A DNA stretch of 36,903 nt from Chrysochromulina tobinii (lineage: Eukaryota > Haptophyta > Prymnesiales > Chrysochromulinaceae), in the NCBI GenBank assembly GCA_001275005.1, contig JWZX01002771.1, forward strand, positions 1-36,903, in the 5' to 3' direction. Below the pieces are notes generated by a model. That model was not told the origin of the DNA. It did not search any database and was given only the letters and a program-made list of their open reading frames with translations. The position numbers and the translations under genes were made by a program. Positions 3,323 to 28,260 of the stretch are shown one piece after another (the stretch's first letter is position 1; the number at the start of each line of letters is the position of its first letter).

Positions 3323-4859
3323 ATGAGCTCCAAGGTCGACATGATCAACGCGCTGGGGCAGGCCGAAGTGGCACGCAAGAAGGCGCAGCGGTCCGCCTAC
3401 GTGCCCGATCTCTTTCTGCTCGAGCGGCTCAACTTCTTCACTCAGATCCCGAAGCAGTGCCCGCAGAGCCAAGCTTGCTTTGGCTCCTTCCTCGCTCGGC
3501 AGCTCGACAGCGGTGTGAGCTCGCTCGGAGCGAAGCTCCCGAAGCTCGAGGAGTACTGGCTCAAGGCGGCGGCGGTCTTGGAGCTCGAGAAGGGCTTGAC
3601 GGCCGCGCCGCTCTACTTCACTCGCATCCTGCGGGACGTGCTCCCGCTGCTCGGGCCCGACCTCCGAGAAGCGTACCAAGCGTACCAAAGGTACGCGGCG
3701 CGGGCCGACCCAAGCTCGGCGGCGGCTGCGCTGCCTCCGCTGCTGAGCGGCGCCGTGCTGGGCAGCTCGGACGGCGGCACGCCTGCGGGCGGCGACTCGC
3801 GATCAGCTGGTGGCACTGGCTTGCTGCGCCGGCACTGCGTGGTGCACTATCGCGTGGGCGACATGCTCTCGTTGCACGTGAACGGCGGCATGATCATCAA
3901 CCCAGCCGCCGTGGCAGCCGCAGCGGCAAGCTTCGCCCCGGCGCCCACGAGCGTCGAGATCCTCGATGGCGGCGTGGGCTGGGGCGTCGATGGCGCTGTC
4001 AACTCCGATGATGACCCGTCCTCTGTCATCTCGCGCTCGCTTGGGGTGCGACTGATGGCATCTGATTGCATCCCTCATCTCCGTCCTCCGTCATCTCGCG
4101 CTCGCTTGGGGTGCGACTGATGGCATCTGATTGCATCCCTCATCTCCGTCCTCTGTCATCTCGCGCTCGCTTGGGGTGCGACTGATGGCATCTGATGGCA
4201 TCTGATTGCATCCCTCATCTCGCGCTCGGGATGCTCTTCAATCTGAGTGCCTCTGAGTACGACTGATGGCATCTGATTGCATCCCTCCTCAGGTGCTCTT
4301 CAATCTGAGCCGCGCCCTGCAGGCGGCCCTGCCGAGCTCCCGAATCCTACCCTCGACGCTGCGCGCGGCAGATGGCGACTTCTTCGCGCTGACAGAGGCT
4401 GACTATGTCGTGGTGGCTGGGGGCTCGTTTGGGCTCCTTGGGGCCACGGCCGGCAAGCCCGGGCAGCAAGTGCGCTCGCCTGCATGTGATCATCACCTGG
4501 ACGTCGCCGGCTCGCGTCGCGCGCCCAGCGCGAAACCACTTCGCAAGGGCTGGCTCGAGTACCCTTACGATCTCGTCCGGACGCGCGCGGCTCACGAGCC
4601 ACTGCTCGAGCGTGCGCCGCAGCCGGTGTGGCGGCTGGGCAGTGCGCCGGACGATGCTCAGGACGACGCCGAGCGCCATACCGGGCGCGACGGCGCTCGG
4701 CCCCCCTCGCTGCAGTACGTCCTCGATGGCCGCGGAGATGACCTCGGAGATTCGCCGTGGGACGAGAAGCGCACTTTGCTTCCACACGGCGTCGAGCCCT
4801 GGCTGGAGACGTGGCAAGCGTGGGAGCGGTGGCACAAGATCAGGACAGGGGACACCTGA
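3323..4859 (+). CDS. Putative fucosyltransferase-like glycosyltransferase (HxRxGD type)
   Basis: Two-exon model: 3323-4045 and 4293-4859, phase 0 junction, 429 residues. The diagnostic blocks are CVVHYRVGDML (about 3835-3867), matching the H-x-R-x-G-D sugar-nucleotide loop of GT-B fucosyltransferase-like enzymes, and in exon 2 the AD-VVVAGGSFGLLGA block at about 4397-4445, which resembles the C-terminal nucleotide-sugar motif (aspartate, then a Gly-Ser-Phe turn) of that superfamily. It would transfer a sugar from a nucleotide donor, probably in the Golgi. No signal anchor is visible in this model, so the 5' end may be incomplete: the frame is open upstream with another ATG at 3143. The exon 1 end is duplicated inside the intron. 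The family assignment is moderate, and donor and acceptor are unknown. Confidence 0.55.
4046..4292 (+). repeat. Introner-like intron with three 65-bp repeats of the exon end
   Basis: Intron of the glycosyltransferase gene. A 65-bp unit starting GTCATCTCGCGCTCGC begins at 4025, 4090 and 4155, so the last 21 nt of exon 1 and the splice donor (GGGGTGCGACTG) occur three times. The rest is TGATGGCATC/TGATTGCATC decamers. It ends GATTGCATCCCTCCTCAG (4275-4292), an 18-nt block shared with introns of the P2X and SEC23 genes. Only the first donor keeps the reading frame, because 65 is not a multiple of three. Confidence 0.8.
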
Positions 4860-4909
4860 TACCTTTAATAGATCGGGGGCCCAGGCCGTGCGAGTGTGTC
4901 GTGTCAAAA

Positions 4910-5007
4910 CATTGGGCCCCTCTCACCCACTATGAGCGCTACCCTCTCGCCGGTAGCGCCGATGGCGCCCATCGCGAGTTCCACTGAGTGCGACTGATAC
5001 GTCCCTC
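4910..5007 (-). repeat. Inverted copy of the P2X exon 1/intron 1 junction
   Basis: On the plus strand this stretch reads almost identically to the minus-strand sequence at about 6763-6862: the end of P2X exon 1 (GGGCCC...CACTATGAGCGCTACC), the donor CTCGCCG|GTAGCG, and most of the intron through GAGTGCGACTGAT, followed by a shortened GTCCCT end. It lies between two convergent genes, 38 nt beyond the P2X stop codon. A P2X pre-mRNA that extends this far could fold back onto its own 5' splice site. Confidence 0.8.
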
Positions 5008-5044
5008 TCGCGTGGAGATGCTCGCGTCTCGCTTCGAATGTCGC

Positions 5045-7816
5045 CTATCCTGGTGGAGGTCCTGCGAGCCCAGGCGGTGGCGCTGACAGCTCTTCATTCT
5101 TGGCAGCAGAAGTAGCCACATTTTGGGCTGGGGCTGGGGCCGGCGCCGGCGCGGCTGTCGCGACCGCCTGCGCGACCGGCGCGGCCGGCGTGGCAGGCGC
5201 GGCCACCGTATGCTGCGCCGCGGCCAAAAGCGACGCCTCCTTCCACCCGCCTCCCGCCTCCTTGTGATACTCCTTCCACCCGAGCTTCCGCGCATCGTCG
5301 AGGCGATTCTGGGCAATGTAGTGCTTGATCCACGCGGTGCGTCGCTCCACATCCTTTGGATCCAATACCGCGGCCGTCCCCTTGACGAAATCGGGCAACG
5401 TGATCGCCTTGGGCTCCTCGCCGGCCGGTAGCCAGCCGAGCTTGCGAGCTTCGCGCATCTGGCCGGCGGCAAGCGAGCTCACGACGAGCTGCGAGGACCA
5501 GCCGAGCTTGATGGCCTCCGGGAGCTCGCCCGAGCTCAGATAATGACGAATCCACGCCGCGCGCCGCTCGTCGTCGGCGGTGAGGGGCGCATGCATGTCG
5601 TCCCCGTTCGGGCTCGTACGCCAGCCGAGCGCCTCTGCTTCGTCATACTGGCCCGTCGCGAGGTAATGCAGCAGCAGGTCGCGACGCGCCCTCTCCTCCG
5701 CGCGCGTCGCATTGGGCGCCGGCGCCGTCGCGGGCGGAAGCGTCGGATTGGCCGGGGTCGGCTGCGAATGTGAAGATGCAGCAGATGAAGCGGCGGGCGC
5801 ACCCGCCGCCGTGTCCTCCGCCGTGCCGAGCGCCGCCGCGCTGTCTCTTTCCGCGGCTTCGGCGCGGCGGCGCTCGGCGAACTTGCGCATCTCGGCCTGC
5901 GCATGGGCAAACGCCTGCTGGCAATACTGGCGCTGCGGGTCGGCAGCCTTACCATCACGATGTGTGCCCTCCGACGCTTGGGCCTTGGCGACAAGCTCGA
6001 GGGCCTTGTAGACGGACTCGAAGTTGCCTCCCTCACGTGCCACCATGAACTCGTCAAAGTTGATGCTCAGCTGCTCTGCCGCCGCGCCGGCCCCTGCCAT
6101 GGCCGCAGCCGTGGCCGCATCCGGCTTCTCCTCCACCTCCACGGGTGCCGTCTGCTTGCCCTTCGCCTTGCGCCTCGTCGTCTCGGACCCCTTCTTGCCC
6201 TTCGCGGCGGCCTTGTCGGCCGCGACGCGCCGATCTTCTGTGGCCGCGCGCATCACCAGGTTCGCCATCGCAAGGGCCTGTTCAAAGCTGACGCCGCCCA
6301 CCCCCGCAAACGCGCGCACCAGGTCGTCCACCTGCAGCAGCCCATCGCCGTCGTCGTCCAGGCTCTGGAACTGCGCGCTCGCCAGGACCGCCTTCATCCC
6401 AATCTCTGCGAACCTGTCCTCTGCGTTCAAGTTCTCGCGCGTCCGGTTGCATGCTCAGCTGATGAGGGACGCAATCAGAGCGCCTCAGAGGCCATCAGAG
6501 CACGCACCTGCGTTGAAGTTCTCGCGCGTCCGGTTGTCGATCATCTCAGCGCGCCCGTTGGGGGCAAACTTGAGCGCCCAAAAGGTGGCGATCTGCTTGG
6601 CGAGCCCGAGCAGCACTAGGCCCTCGATCAGCTTGCCGATGAGCAGGCCCCAATCCCACTGCCAGAGCAGGCCAGACGTGCGGAGTCGGAAGATGACGCC
6701 CTGCCGCCACCGGTGAACCTTGTCGAACTCGCGATAGTCACCTGATTAGGGACGCAATCATTTGCCATCAGTCGCCATCAGTCGCACTCAGTGGCACTCG
6801 CGATGGTCGCCATCGGCGCTACCGGCGAGAGGGTAGCGCTCATAGTGGGTGATGGGCCCAATGTCCCCCCACGTCGACGTGGTCGCCTTCGCGTCGACCC
6901 GTGCGAACACGGTCTGCTCATCGTACCCCGGCCGACCAGTCGTCGGGTCGATGTTCGAGTAGCGCACATCGATCTCGATCGCGAGGCCCGACGAGCGGAA
7001 GCTCGGGTACACATGGGCGCGGCCGGGCCGGTAGTCGGGCGACAGGTTGGTGTTCGCATCATTCAGCCGGAAGCCCTCCTCCGTCGCCAGCTGCACCCAC
7101 TCGCCCACGGTCAACCGGATGGCGCCGCCGCTCCGCACCGTGTGCCTGCCGCCCGTCTCGTTCTGAAAGTGGATGGTCGTGTCGACGGCGCCCGGGGTGC
7201 CGGCGGGCGCCGTGCTGCTGCCACTGCGTCCGGCGAACCGCATCGCGCCTTCAAAGCCGTGCTCGATGGCCATGTCCATCAGCTCCACGCCTACAGGGTA
7301 CACGGTTCGCTTGGAGGAGCAAACGCACTGCATGCCGCCCTCGAGCGTGGCGTCGACCGTGCCGTTGCGCAGCACGCACGCACTCCGCTGGCTCGCATTG
7401 TGTGCGGCGGCGCACGCCCAGCCGACCTCGCGGTACTCGACGAACGCCGTCGTGAAGTGCACCGCGTCACCCCCTTTGGCACTCACCTCGTACGGGCTGA
7501 CAATCTGACACTGCGGATCGTCCATCACAGTGTTCGGGTCGTATGCGTACGAAAACGCCGCCGGGTTGCAATAGGACAGCTCGCTGAGGTCGGCGTAGCC
7601 TGTGTGCTCAGTGTAGCGGCCCGCCTCAGGCCACCCGTTCACCGCACCGACGGGCGCCTCTGAGAAGGCCCACGCATCGGCAGCGTAGAGGTTGTAGGCC
7701 ACGTAGAAGACGACGAGTAGCTGCAGGAAAAGGTGCACGAGGCCCACCTCCCACACCTCGATGGTCACGCGCCGATCCATGACGAAGGTGAACGTCTTAT
7801 TCCAGTCGCGCGCCAT
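5045..7816 (-). CDS. P2X-like receptor channel with EF-hand and C-terminal HYL/LGW repeats
   Basis: Three exons on the minus strand: 7816-6823, 6741-6508 and 6420-5045, 867 codons including stop. TM1 is at about 24-44 (GLVHLFLQLLVVFYVAY). A six-cysteine ectodomain follows with potential N-glycosylation sites, a VGVELMDMAIEHGF stretch and an SGLAIEIDVRYSNID stretch that match the P2X beta-strands preceding TM2 (compare G-I-x-W-x-C-N-L-D). Then comes GVIFRLRTSGLLWQWDWGLL and TM2 at about 358-380. P2X receptors are trimeric ATP-gated cation channels; the family's K-x-K-G ATP-contact motif is not obvious here, so the ligand is uncertain. The long cytosolic tail carries an EF-hand loop at 431-442 (DDDGDGLLQVDD), a basic stretch, and four copies of an H-Y-L-x2-G-x4-EA-x2-LGW repeat (about 650-793). 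It shares a 212-bp promoter with the PDZ gene. A P2X fused to calcium-binding and repeat modules is unusual. Confidence 0.75.
6421..6507 (-). repeat. Introner-like intron with 28-nt flanking duplication (P2X intron 2)
   Basis: 87 nt, donor GCAG|GTGCGTG, acceptor GCAG|AGGACAGG. The last 28 nt of exon 2 (6508-6535) recur with one mismatch at the 3' end of the intron (6421-6448). Just before this copy stands GATTGCGTCCCTCATCAG, the 18-nt block shared by other introns. Splicing at that inner CAG would bring in an in-frame stop, so the outer acceptor must be used. The layout looks like an insertion with a long target-site duplication. Confidence 0.85.
6742..6822 (-). repeat. Introner-like intron (P2X intron 1)
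   Basis: 81 nt, donor CTCGCCG|GTAGCG, acceptor AATCAG|GTGACTATCG, phase 1; joining gives L-A-G-D-Y-R-E-F in frame. Inside it has CACTGAGTGCGACTGATGGC decamers and ends GATTGCGTCCCTAATCAG. A GGCGACCATCGCGAG segment near the start resembles the first bases of exon 2 (GGTGACTATCGCGAG), again a junction duplication. Confidence 0.85.
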
Positions 7817-8028
7817 GAAGATGGACGGGGTGGCAGTCGCGGCAGTTCACGATTTTCTCGCCGAAGTGCGGGGGGCGGGTACCGGGTAGGAAGGCGGCGG
7901 ATAACAGCCCGCCCGCGCAGGCGCAGCGCACGCGGGGCTCTTCGGTGGCCAGCAGCCACGTCACATGTTTCGTGCAAAACGCCGTTTCGAACGCGATTCG
8001 CGGACTCCGGGTGATTGCGTTCGGGGCC
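7817..8028. promoter_or_regulatory. Short divergent promoter between P2X and PDZ genes
   Basis: Only 212 bp separate the start codon of the minus-strand P2X gene from the ATG chosen for the plus-strand PDZ gene. The two promoters must overlap. No TATA-like box was recognised. The PDZ frame stays open upstream to 7945 without an ATG. Confidence 0.4.
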
Positions 8029-8823
8029 ATGCAAAGGCTGTACGACGGCGACGCCGACGGCGCCCTGGCGGTCGCATCAGGTTCCTCATCGGCCGAGGCG
8101 GGTGACGTCCTGGCTCCGCTTCCCCATGACGGCGGATACGAACTCAAGAGGTTCACGTTCGAGGAAGGCCCACTCGGCATGAAATTCGGCGGCACGTTGG
8201 AGCACACAACAGCTGGTGTCGAGGTTGCAATCGTGACGGTGTCGGAGTTGTTGCGCGACTCCCAGGCAGCGAAGCTCGGCGTCCCCGTGGGCTCGATCCT
8301 GAAGCTCATTGGCCAGACGAACATCACCCAGGTGAAGACGATGGCGGAGGTCCTCGATGTGCTCAGTGCGGCGCCACGGCCCGTTGAAATCGCGATGACC
8401 GTGCCGCGGCCCAAGAGGGATGACGAGTATGACGATGATGACATTGGGGCGATCATGATGGAGAAGCAGGTCACGCCTGGCACGGATATGGCGATCATGA
8501 TGGCCGAGCAGATGAAGGCCGAGTTTGCGGCGGACTATGCGGCGGCGGCAGCTGCGGAAGCGGCGGTCCAGGCAGAGCAGAAGAACGCGGAGGCCATGGG
8601 CAACTTCGTGATTGTCACCGAGAAGGGCACTGGGTTCTTCCACTTCGAGTTCTTTGCCGACGAGCTCAACGCACGCCGTGCGGCGGCGAAGCTGTGGTGC
8701 TGCTGGGTGCTCTTTTGCAGGCAAGGGGGAGCGCTCAACGAGGTGACGTCCGGCGGCCTTGGGTTCGCCTGTATGTCGATTCGGAATCATGTGTTGATGC
8801 AAATCAGCGGGGTTGGTAGCTGA
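8029..8823 (+). CDS. PDZ-domain protein (hypothetical)
   Basis: Single exon of 264 residues starting at the ATG at 8029; the frame is open further upstream but lacks an ATG. Residues about 42-125 form a PDZ-like domain: GPLGMKFGG is the carboxylate-binding loop region, IVTVSELLRDSQAAKLGV the helix and strand after it, then PVGSILKLIGQTNI, with the pattern GVPVGSILKLIG typical of PDZ beta-strands. An acidic DDEYDDDD patch and an Ala/Glu-rich helix follow. The C-terminal part (FFHFEFFADELNARR, then a Trp/Cys-rich segment) is not recognised. PDZ domains bind C-terminal peptides of membrane proteins, so a scaffold role is likely; a link to the divergent P2X gene is only a possibility from position. 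Confidence 0.6.
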   Translation: MQRLYDGDADGALAVASGSSSAEAGDVLAPLPHDGGYELKRFTFEEGPLGMKFGGTLEHTTAGVEVAIVTVSELLRDSQAAKLGVPVGSILKLIGQTNITQVKTMAEVLDVLSAAPRPVEIAMTVPRPKRDDEYDDDDIGAIMMEKQVTPGTDMAIMMAEQMKAEFAADYAAAAAAEAAVQAEQKNAEAMGNFVIVTEKGTGFFHFEFFADELNARRAAAKLWCCWVLFCRQGGALNEVTSGGLGFACMSIRNHVLMQISGVGS

Positions 8824-8922
8824 AGTTTTATGTTGAGCCGGCGCTCATCTTGGCGCGCCACGTGTTCGGACGCAAACGAAGTCTTCTGCACCTTTCGTGG
8901 CGGTGCGACAATTGTGTCTGGC

Positions 8923-11773
<2,851 letters not shown>

Positions 11774-27349: not shown

Positions 27350-28237
27350 TCACAGGTAGCCGAGGCCTGCCGCACTTCGCAACCGTTCATAGAGAGGGAA
27401 GGTGATGACGAAATGCGGCCCGAGGCGCAGGAATGTGGCAAACGCGCCGCGCCAGAGCGAAAACACGCCTTCCCTTCCACAGGTCTTGGCCAAACAGTCG
27501 TACACACCTGCGTACGCGCCGACGCGGTCGCCCATGACGCGAGTCTTGAGCATGTCGGCGGGCGCCGTGACGAGCGTCGCGCACACTGCCGATACTTGGG
27601 AGCAGAAGATGTGCAACCCAAGCCCGTCGGGTACTGGTAGCTGATCACGTAGCAGATGCTTGCTGTGATCGTACGAGGCTAGCTGCGAGGCGGCCATCAG
27701 CATGCCTCGCGCCACACTCGGCGTCGCGCCTCGCATAGCGATTCCCTCGGCGGCCACAGCACGCAGCCCGGCGACAGTGCTGGGCCACGTCGGCGGATGG
27801 CCGGCACGCAGCCCGGTTGTGTATCGCCCGTCCGCTCCGACTGCTCCAGCCTCTGCCATGAAGCTAACCTTGACCACATCAATCGGATTGCTGATGACAG
27901 ACCCGAGACCACCCGTGACCGCACCGGCGATGATCTTGCCGCCCAGGCCGTTATCGACTCCCAAAACTTGCTTGATGTAAGGGTATAGCCCCATGCGAGT
28001 CGTGGAGTATAAGGCCTCTCGCAACAGCGTGGCAGCCAGCGCTGTCGTCCAAAGTGAAGCGATGCCCTGCTCTGCGCTGATCTTCCGTGCACAGTCGCCG
28101 ACGCCGCGATAAAGTGCCGCACCGCCCGGCGATTGAAGGCGCAGTTTGACTACATCGGACGGATTGAGCAGCGCGGTGCTCAGGCCATTGGCCACGCCCG
28201 CGCACCCCATGTCGAGGACAATGTTGCCGATACCCAT
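27350..28237 (-). CDS. Mitochondrial carrier (SLC25) of the UCP/dicarboxylate group
   Basis: Single exon, 295 residues from the ATG at 28237, a normal length for the family; a longer frame begins at a GTG only. Three Solcar repeats carry the P-x-D-x-x-K signatures NPSDVVKLRLQ, NPIDVVKVSFM and APADMLKTRVM. Each is preceded by small-residue helices (GCAGVANGLSTALL, GAVTGGLGSVIS, CSQVSAVCATLVT) and followed by matrix helix and even-helix motifs (GIASLWTTALAATLLREALY, GVFSLWRGAFATFLRLGP). RMGLYPYIKQVLG is typical of the UCP, dicarboxylate and oxoglutarate carriers, which exchange small metabolites across the inner membrane. The exact substrate cannot be read from the sequence. Confidence 0.88.
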   Translation of the reverse strand: MGIGNIVLDMGCAGVANGLSTALLNPSDVVKLRLQSPGGAALYRGVGDCARKISAEQGIASLWTTALAATLLREALYSTTRMGLYPYIKQVLGVDNGLGGKIIAGAVTGGLGSVISNPIDVVKVSFMAEAGAVGADGRYTTGLRAGHPPTWPSTVAGLRAVAAEGIAMRGATPSVARGMLMAASQLASYDHSKHLLRDQLPVPDGLGLHIFCSQVSAVCATLVTAPADMLKTRVMGDRVGAYAGVYDCLAKTCGREGVFSLWRGAFATFLRLGPHFVITFPLYERLRSAAGLGYL

Positions 28238-28260
28238 TCGCTGCTCAGTACCGTGCACTC

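Follow-up and report, generated by a model that had tools for sequence, protein, structure and literature searches.

Why should introns of unrelated genes in one small part of the Chrysochromulina tobinii genome carry the same 18 nt? A preliminary description of contig JWZX01002771.1 (the 36,903-nt stretch analysed here in full as the window) had reported a shared block, GATTGCVTCCCTMMTCAG, at or near the 3' splice site of four introns in three genes, and had suggested an introner-like family. The block is found exactly at all four sites, 4275-4292 and 10220-10237 on the plus strand and 6459-6476 and 6742-6759 on the minus strand, and the window holds nine matches with at most three mismatches, whereas 100 shuffles gave 0.20 on average. 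In three of these introns it reaches the inferred 3' splice site; in the fourth, at 6421-6507 (-), it stops 38 nt short of it. The TGATGGC-type repeats thought to lie upstream in all four fail for SEC23 intron 2, whose units are TGATTGC. As for the gene names, SEC23 is certain, based on its Sec23 Pfam domains and an alignment to human Sec23A. The glycosyltransferase and P2X labels found no Pfam support at E<=0.01, and the supposed P2X gene showed only a sub-threshold EF-hand (E 0.0099) and no P2X match among the PDB sequences; it is called the two-TM/EF-hand-like gene below. An Rfam scan of the window gave nothing at the gathering threshold. The carrier at 27350-28258 (-) has its best named-organism match in Prymnesium polylepis, with 63% identity among the 120 matches listed, and environmental matches of up to 73% identity among those listed.

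A genome-wide search for the 18-mer, proposed earlier as a check, covered 53.15 Mb in 2,253 contigs and returned 664 + 668 = 1,332 exact copies, with 0 + 0 for the reversed pattern. CTGATTGCNTCCCTCATCAGGT has 580 matches, versus 8 when its block is reverse-complemented and followed by GT. The 18 nt belong to a longer block of 20 nt, CTGATTGC(C/G/A)TCCCTCATCAG, and make up its end; introns with this block are called family A here. Sites for further analysis were taken mainly from 100 listed places of the 1,332 (those with the lowest contig numbers, a non-random choice) and from the window; from these and from the sites of a second family described below, duplicates and sites too close to locus ends were removed. 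When 145 family A sites with at most one mismatch from the consensus were aligned, strong conservation was confined to the segment from -20 to the AG, with little upstream, and the exon that follows starts with G in 82%, T in 61% and G in 59% of these sites. Upstream of the block lie variable units of 10-11 nt (TGATGACC, TGATTGCATGC and others), i.e. a variable filler. By eye, CTGAT at the start and ATCAG at the end of the block could form a 5 bp inverted repeat. Three block-like stretches in a viral collection, representing two distinct sequences, all have a T at the variable place and no intron-like context and were attributed to chance.

Such a block could be an ordinary splice signal, with introns converging on a single branch point and a single pyrimidine tract while minisatellites expand within them. 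CTGAT and CTCAC fit a branch-point consensus, and minisatellite arrays are common in the loci examined. Against convergence, with up to two mismatches allowed, nine of ten shuffled cores of the block matched once or not at all, and 84 matches came from the tenth, a core that resembles the true block. Convergence also predicts neither two unrelated tails nor the exon-derived repeats and donor sequence presented below, and it falls if the donor pairs hold. We regard this explanation as very improbable.

That the segments are introns whose removal restores proteins is predicted from coding evidence, most fully in SEC23 (8923-11773, plus strand; exons 8923-9810, 9915-10082, 10238-10423, 10508-10648, 10750-11133 and 11261-11773; 759 aa). 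With its five introns removed, residues 6-758 align to human Sec23A without a gap at any of the five junctions. Retention of intron 1, 2, 4 or 5 results in a frame shift and internal stops. Intron 3 (84 nt), if retained, leaves an open frame with only the final stop, and its removal therefore rests on the Sec23A alignment. SEC23 and nine further spliced peptides, selected from a set of 28, were compared to Pfam: in six of these ten, a domain crosses a junction (DSPc, JmjC, ADH_zinc_N, Exo_endo_phos, Asparaginase_C and the Sec23 domains), and four gave no match. The unrelated host genes include an asparaginase, a DSP phosphatase, a JmjC protein, a dehydrogenase and SEC23. Retention breaks the frame for 25 of the 28 hand-picked introns, and a broader but weak frame test was consistent at 32 of 55 sites, or 9 of 11 where both flanks look coding. 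Regarding orientation, when each upstream flank was judged by its best window out of many that overlap, it was coding-like in 59 of 81 clusters. Of those 59, 58 are in sense; the other 22 clusters were not classifiable. Downstream, 33 flanks are coding-like (30 sense, 3 antisense) and 48 are weak. Selection alone could account for both the exact ends and the sense orientation.

A further feature lies at the other end of these introns. In many cases the first 15-48 nt of the downstream exon, counted from the splice junction, reappear as the 5' half of the intron, an anatomy that, as read from the sequence, appears to be new. Such introns would obtain their 5' splice site from the duplicated exon and their 3' splice site from the insert. 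A first repeat test (112 sites, 111 tested) gave 55 with a score of at least 12, compared to 3 with the exon of another locus and 32 with the exon of the same locus shifted by 5-40 nt, a control that overlaps the repeat. In the family A test (110 sites), 44 of 62 non-nested sites reached a score of at least 12, versus 6 of 62 with another locus's exon, and 32 of the 44 repeats begin exactly at the junction. For the second family, B, the figures are 16 of 25 versus 3 of 25, with 14 of the 16 starting exactly at the junction, one of these 14 repeating family B sequence instead of exon. At this score, no repeat is present in 18 of the 62 family A sites, nor in 9 of the 25 family B sites.

A clean set was defined by a score of at least 12, a start within 1 nt of the junction, an identity of at least 0.85 and a filler of at least 18 nt. 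Starting from 108 A and 30 B sites before nested sites were left out, 41 of 90 sites qualified (27 of 62 A, 14 of 28 B). Their repeats measure 15-55 bp (shorter ones would fall below the score cut), with medians of 29 (A) and 32.5 bp (B), and six are exact. In three of the 27 A cases (L011, L022 and L047; 51-55 nt) the repeat extends into the filler, which makes 15-48 bp the safer range. The introns are 51-149 nt long (medians 81 in A, 79 in B), and the last exon base before them is G in 88%. They start with GT in 29 of 41 cases and with GC in three; the remaining nine start in other ways, and some of these are mirror cases, e.g. 6421-6507 in the window. The right end of the repeat showed no clear base preference across the 41 cases. 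A constant total of repeat plus filler was considered and dropped (correlation -0.61 in B, n=14; -0.01 in A, n=37, permutation p 0.48).

The window illustrates both the regular and the mirror arrangement. The gene first labelled a glycosyltransferase carries a family A insert at 4232-4292 (+), consisting of an exon-like copy TGCTCTTCAATCTGAG (4232-4247), filler and the block at 4275-4292, and the exonic copy of this 16-bp direct repeat follows at 4294-4309 (+). The 5' splice site of this insert is ambiguous. By eye, a tandem array of three ~65-nt units spans about 4023-4230 (+), before the intron end at 4292. Each unit has TGATGGCATCTGAT..ATCCCTCATCTC at its core and could supply a 5' splice site, GTGCG. 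In the two-TM/EF-hand-like gene, the family A intron at 6742-6810 (-) has an inferred GC 5' splice site, ends at the block 6742-6759 and has a diverged direct repeat (72% identity over 35). Its neighbour at 6421-6507 (-) is a mirror case that reads GTGCGTG, the block at 6459-6476, CTGAGCATGC and a copy of the upstream exon end; this copy (6421-6448) provides the inferred 3' splice site and differs by one mismatch from the exonic copy, AACCGGACGCGCGAGAACTTCAACGCAG, of the 28-nt repeat at 6508-6535 (-). By eye, 4913-5000 (+), downstream of the first gene, is an inverted near copy of the exon-intron segment at ~6770-6860 (-), including CACCCACTATGAGCGCTACCCTCTCGCCGGTAGCGCCGATGGC.

Within SEC23, intron 1 (9811-9914, +) consists of TGATGRCC units and is again a mirror case: the 23-bp exon end at 9788-9810 is repeated at 9892-9914, where it supplies the 3' splice site. 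Intron 2 (10083-10237, +), of family A, has two copies of the downstream exon (10238-10285), at 10083-10111 and 10167-10214, and is apparently the product of two successive inserts, each with its own exon copy. Intron 3 (10424-10507, +) is a diverged family B member (GCATGCAAACGCTCTCCACGGCGCC) with a repeat, GAGTTCAAGGTGTGC / GAGTTTCAGGTGTGC, across its splice junctions, and intron 4 (10649-10749, +), also family B (GCATGCATGTGCTCACCACGGCGCC), repeats the start of its downstream exon. Intron 5 (11134-11260, +) is built from TGATGGCACC units, and no direct repeat was seen by eye. Both families thus meet in one gene, as introns 1, 2 and 5 have A-type units and introns 3 and 4 belong to B.

Family B is defined by a second, unrelated 3' tail, GCATGCNNGTGCTCANCACGGCGCC, mostly ending in CCACAG, of which the genome contains 645 exact copies and none of the reversed pattern. 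In this tail no inverted terminal repeat was seen by eye. The family came to light in a search for direct repeats placed in GT-AG register, which served no other purpose: its 100 strand-specific cases from 394 pairs are no excess over other dinucleotide pairs (TG-GA 140, GC-AG 144), and tandem arrays are many among the cases listed. The B sites come from 20 stretches around places taken from 100 listed of the 645, and from the A loci. In two loci (L059 and L071), A-type units (TGATGACCTGCCT) are joined to a B tail, so that both families occur within one intron. Some sub-lineages have longer common tails beside differing repeats. One B sub-lineage with the longer tail TACCGGCGCTGCATGC.. is present at two places on contig C1789 (L075 and L078) and one on contig C90 (L057), each time adjoining a different exon repeat. 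Compared to the preliminary description, the variable filler, the second family, the long exon repeats and the restriction of similarity to the 3' end are additions; its introner-like family stands in the broad sense of a recurrent insert common to introns of unrelated genes.

Where does the insert come from? Six fillers were used to search for donors. Four gave no clear donor: for two of them the only matches were to themselves or to the shared tail, and for the other two only relatives turned up, which have longer common tails and other repeats. The other two probably reveal their source, with the tail (pair 1) or apparently the whole (pair 2) of a donor intron, together with donor-gene exon, lying inside an unrelated gene. 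In pair 1, 62 nt in the filler of the asparaginase intron (contig C19) are 98% identical to part of an intron on contig C395. Within this match, 28 nt (one mismatch) recur on C395 after the last 3' splice site, in an open frame and exon-like, and are foreign in the asparaginase. The copy runs up to the donor 3' splice site, its 5' side is truncated, and in the recipient it is preceded by a 22-nt copy of the following asparaginase exon. In pair 2, the 5' half of a family B intron at C19:6617 reads VRFLKWETLDL, and the C1142 gene reads VRFLQWEALDL after its intron; at the nucleotide level this half is 85% identical to the C1142 exon over 34 nt, and similarity to the C1142 intron is 92% over 65 nt. 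This recipient holds what looks like the whole donor intron, and no long direct repeat was seen in it. The donor intron is now rearranged, with a tail two bases longer. Stretches were called donor exon from open frames, not family matches, and the exon-intron structure of the pair 2 recipient is likewise drawn without a protein match.

Taken together, we consider it about an even chance that these introns arose by introner-like insertion, with the 3' part of an existing intron as the mobile unit and a staggered cut as its point of entry. The mobile tail would consist of branch region, pyrimidine tract and 3' splice site. It would be copied up to the donor 3' splice site, with a variable upstream cutoff, and the copy would enter an exon at a staggered cut starting from G|GT, and filling of the stagger would duplicate some 15-48 bp of exon. 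The upstream exon copy would then form the new intron's 5' half and give its 5' splice site, the tail would give the 3' splice site, and splicing, if it takes place in vivo as predicted, would restore the reading frame. As every new intron could itself become a donor of its tail, 3' ends would spread as lineages such as A and B, with the 5' halves renewed at every target.

Target-primed reverse transcription of the LINE/SINE type leaves a 3' end that stays the same, a 5' end that varies and target duplications of variable length. The introns described here resemble this in their fixed 3' end, variable 5' end and target duplication; the duplications vary in length, and 5' truncation is seen in pair 1 and in the sub-lineages. 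They differ in that no A-rich tail was seen and that the template would be a spliceosomal intron. The fixed 3' and variable 5' ends, the long duplications of variable length and the copies ending at splice sites suggest that intron RNA is copied 3'-first at a staggered cut, the vehicle being excised intron RNA and the process target-primed reverse transcription. An RNA-templated, 3'-anchored multiplication, whereby the tail of an excised intron enters a staggered cut elsewhere, the duplicated exon becomes the 5' half and the tail can move again, has in our view slightly less than an even chance of being correct. RVT_1 is found at 26 places in the genome, several of them in open frames of more than 1,700 codons, a possible source of reverse transcriptase.

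The main rival is templated insertion at the DNA level. A repair polymerase at a staggered or nicked site would switch to a near or distant intron, copy part of it and return upstream in the exon, which yields filler and tandem duplication without RNA, and selection would retain the products that splice. The variable direct repeats are expected from this, as are the patchwork fillers (A units before B tails in L059 and L071) and the six bases (GTACGG) that donor and recipient of pair 1 have in common beyond the 3' splice site. Fillers are also more alike within a locus (0.545 over 68 pairs) than between loci (0.470 over 1,762 pairs), a difference reached in 0 of 500 permutations; this fits local DNA copying and is allowed by either model. 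The letter at block position 7 showed no excess of local sharing (40 of 79 pairs, 45.9 expected). Repair-born introns are, moreover, described in Daphnia (PMC4202315). What speaks against DNA templating is that both donor copies stop at the donor 3' splice site, that pair 2 resembles a whole intron with one base shared past that site, and that the same two tails are found over and over, in hundreds of copies. Selection that favours exact splicing could produce the same ends, which keeps template switching viable; we hold it to be possible but rather doubtful.

A further candidate is a DNA transposon of the non-autonomous kind whose target duplications are unusually long and whose right end serves as 3' splice site. 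Cut-and-paste elements produce target duplications of fixed length. Here the length varies, family A has no conserved left end, and the inserts contain sequence of other genes. Introners with a target duplication giving the 5' splice site are known, but the 2022 introner survey cites duplications of 3-9 bp (Gozashti et al. 2022; PMC9860276), compared to 15-55 bp in the 41 clean cases. We disfavour the transposon as improbable.

According to the same survey (PMC9860276), known introner families mostly resemble small DNA transposons. The present introns are like introners in being many, similar and at unrelated positions, and like some families in taking the 5' splice site from the target duplication and carrying the 3' one. 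In contrast to the surveyed introners, only the 3' end is common and the duplication is long and variable. To enter the survey, families needed similarity close to both intron boundaries, and those of low complexity were taken out by hand; here conservation is slight before -20 and the 5' half is often a local exon copy. Its genomes include a Chrysochromulina MAG, and in the Chrysochromulina example the duplications are 4 bp long, the insert brings the 5' splice site and the target supplies the 3' one. Families A and B are set apart from the survey families by description, not by sequence, so overlap is possible. The Daphnia neointrons attributed to staggered breaks also have a direct repeat of an exon end at the opposite intron end, but of 4-12 bp (PMC4202315); here the shortest clean case is 15 bp, and the repeats are accompanied by one of two recurrent tails. 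In Amoebophrya, introner elements are likewise repeated introns with direct repeats at their borders, of 3-5 nt, with inverted repeats of 8-20 nt and many non-canonical sites (PMC7789003), unlike the long direct repeats and mostly GT-AG ends found here. Repeats near splice sites in a set of 213 introns measure 4-30 bp, with a mean of 11.4 (PMC11782384). The gain of an RdRp intron in potato similarly ties a tandem genomic duplication to a new intron, but the opening of that abstract has no tail from another intron (PMC4974935). Among the titles and abstract openings listed, no introns with only the 3' end in common and long duplications were found.

Bulk intron gain is an old open question. In these introns the long repeats mark the insertion, and some inserts retain pieces of another gene's exons as traces of their donor, so that a single genome suffices to tell source and direction. 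Criteria that demand similarity at both ends and discard low-complexity families would pass over such introns, so the class could be wider than known. If the proposed mechanism is true, any intron, and not a dedicated transposon, can be a mobile unit, and intron 3' ends would be replicating lineages.
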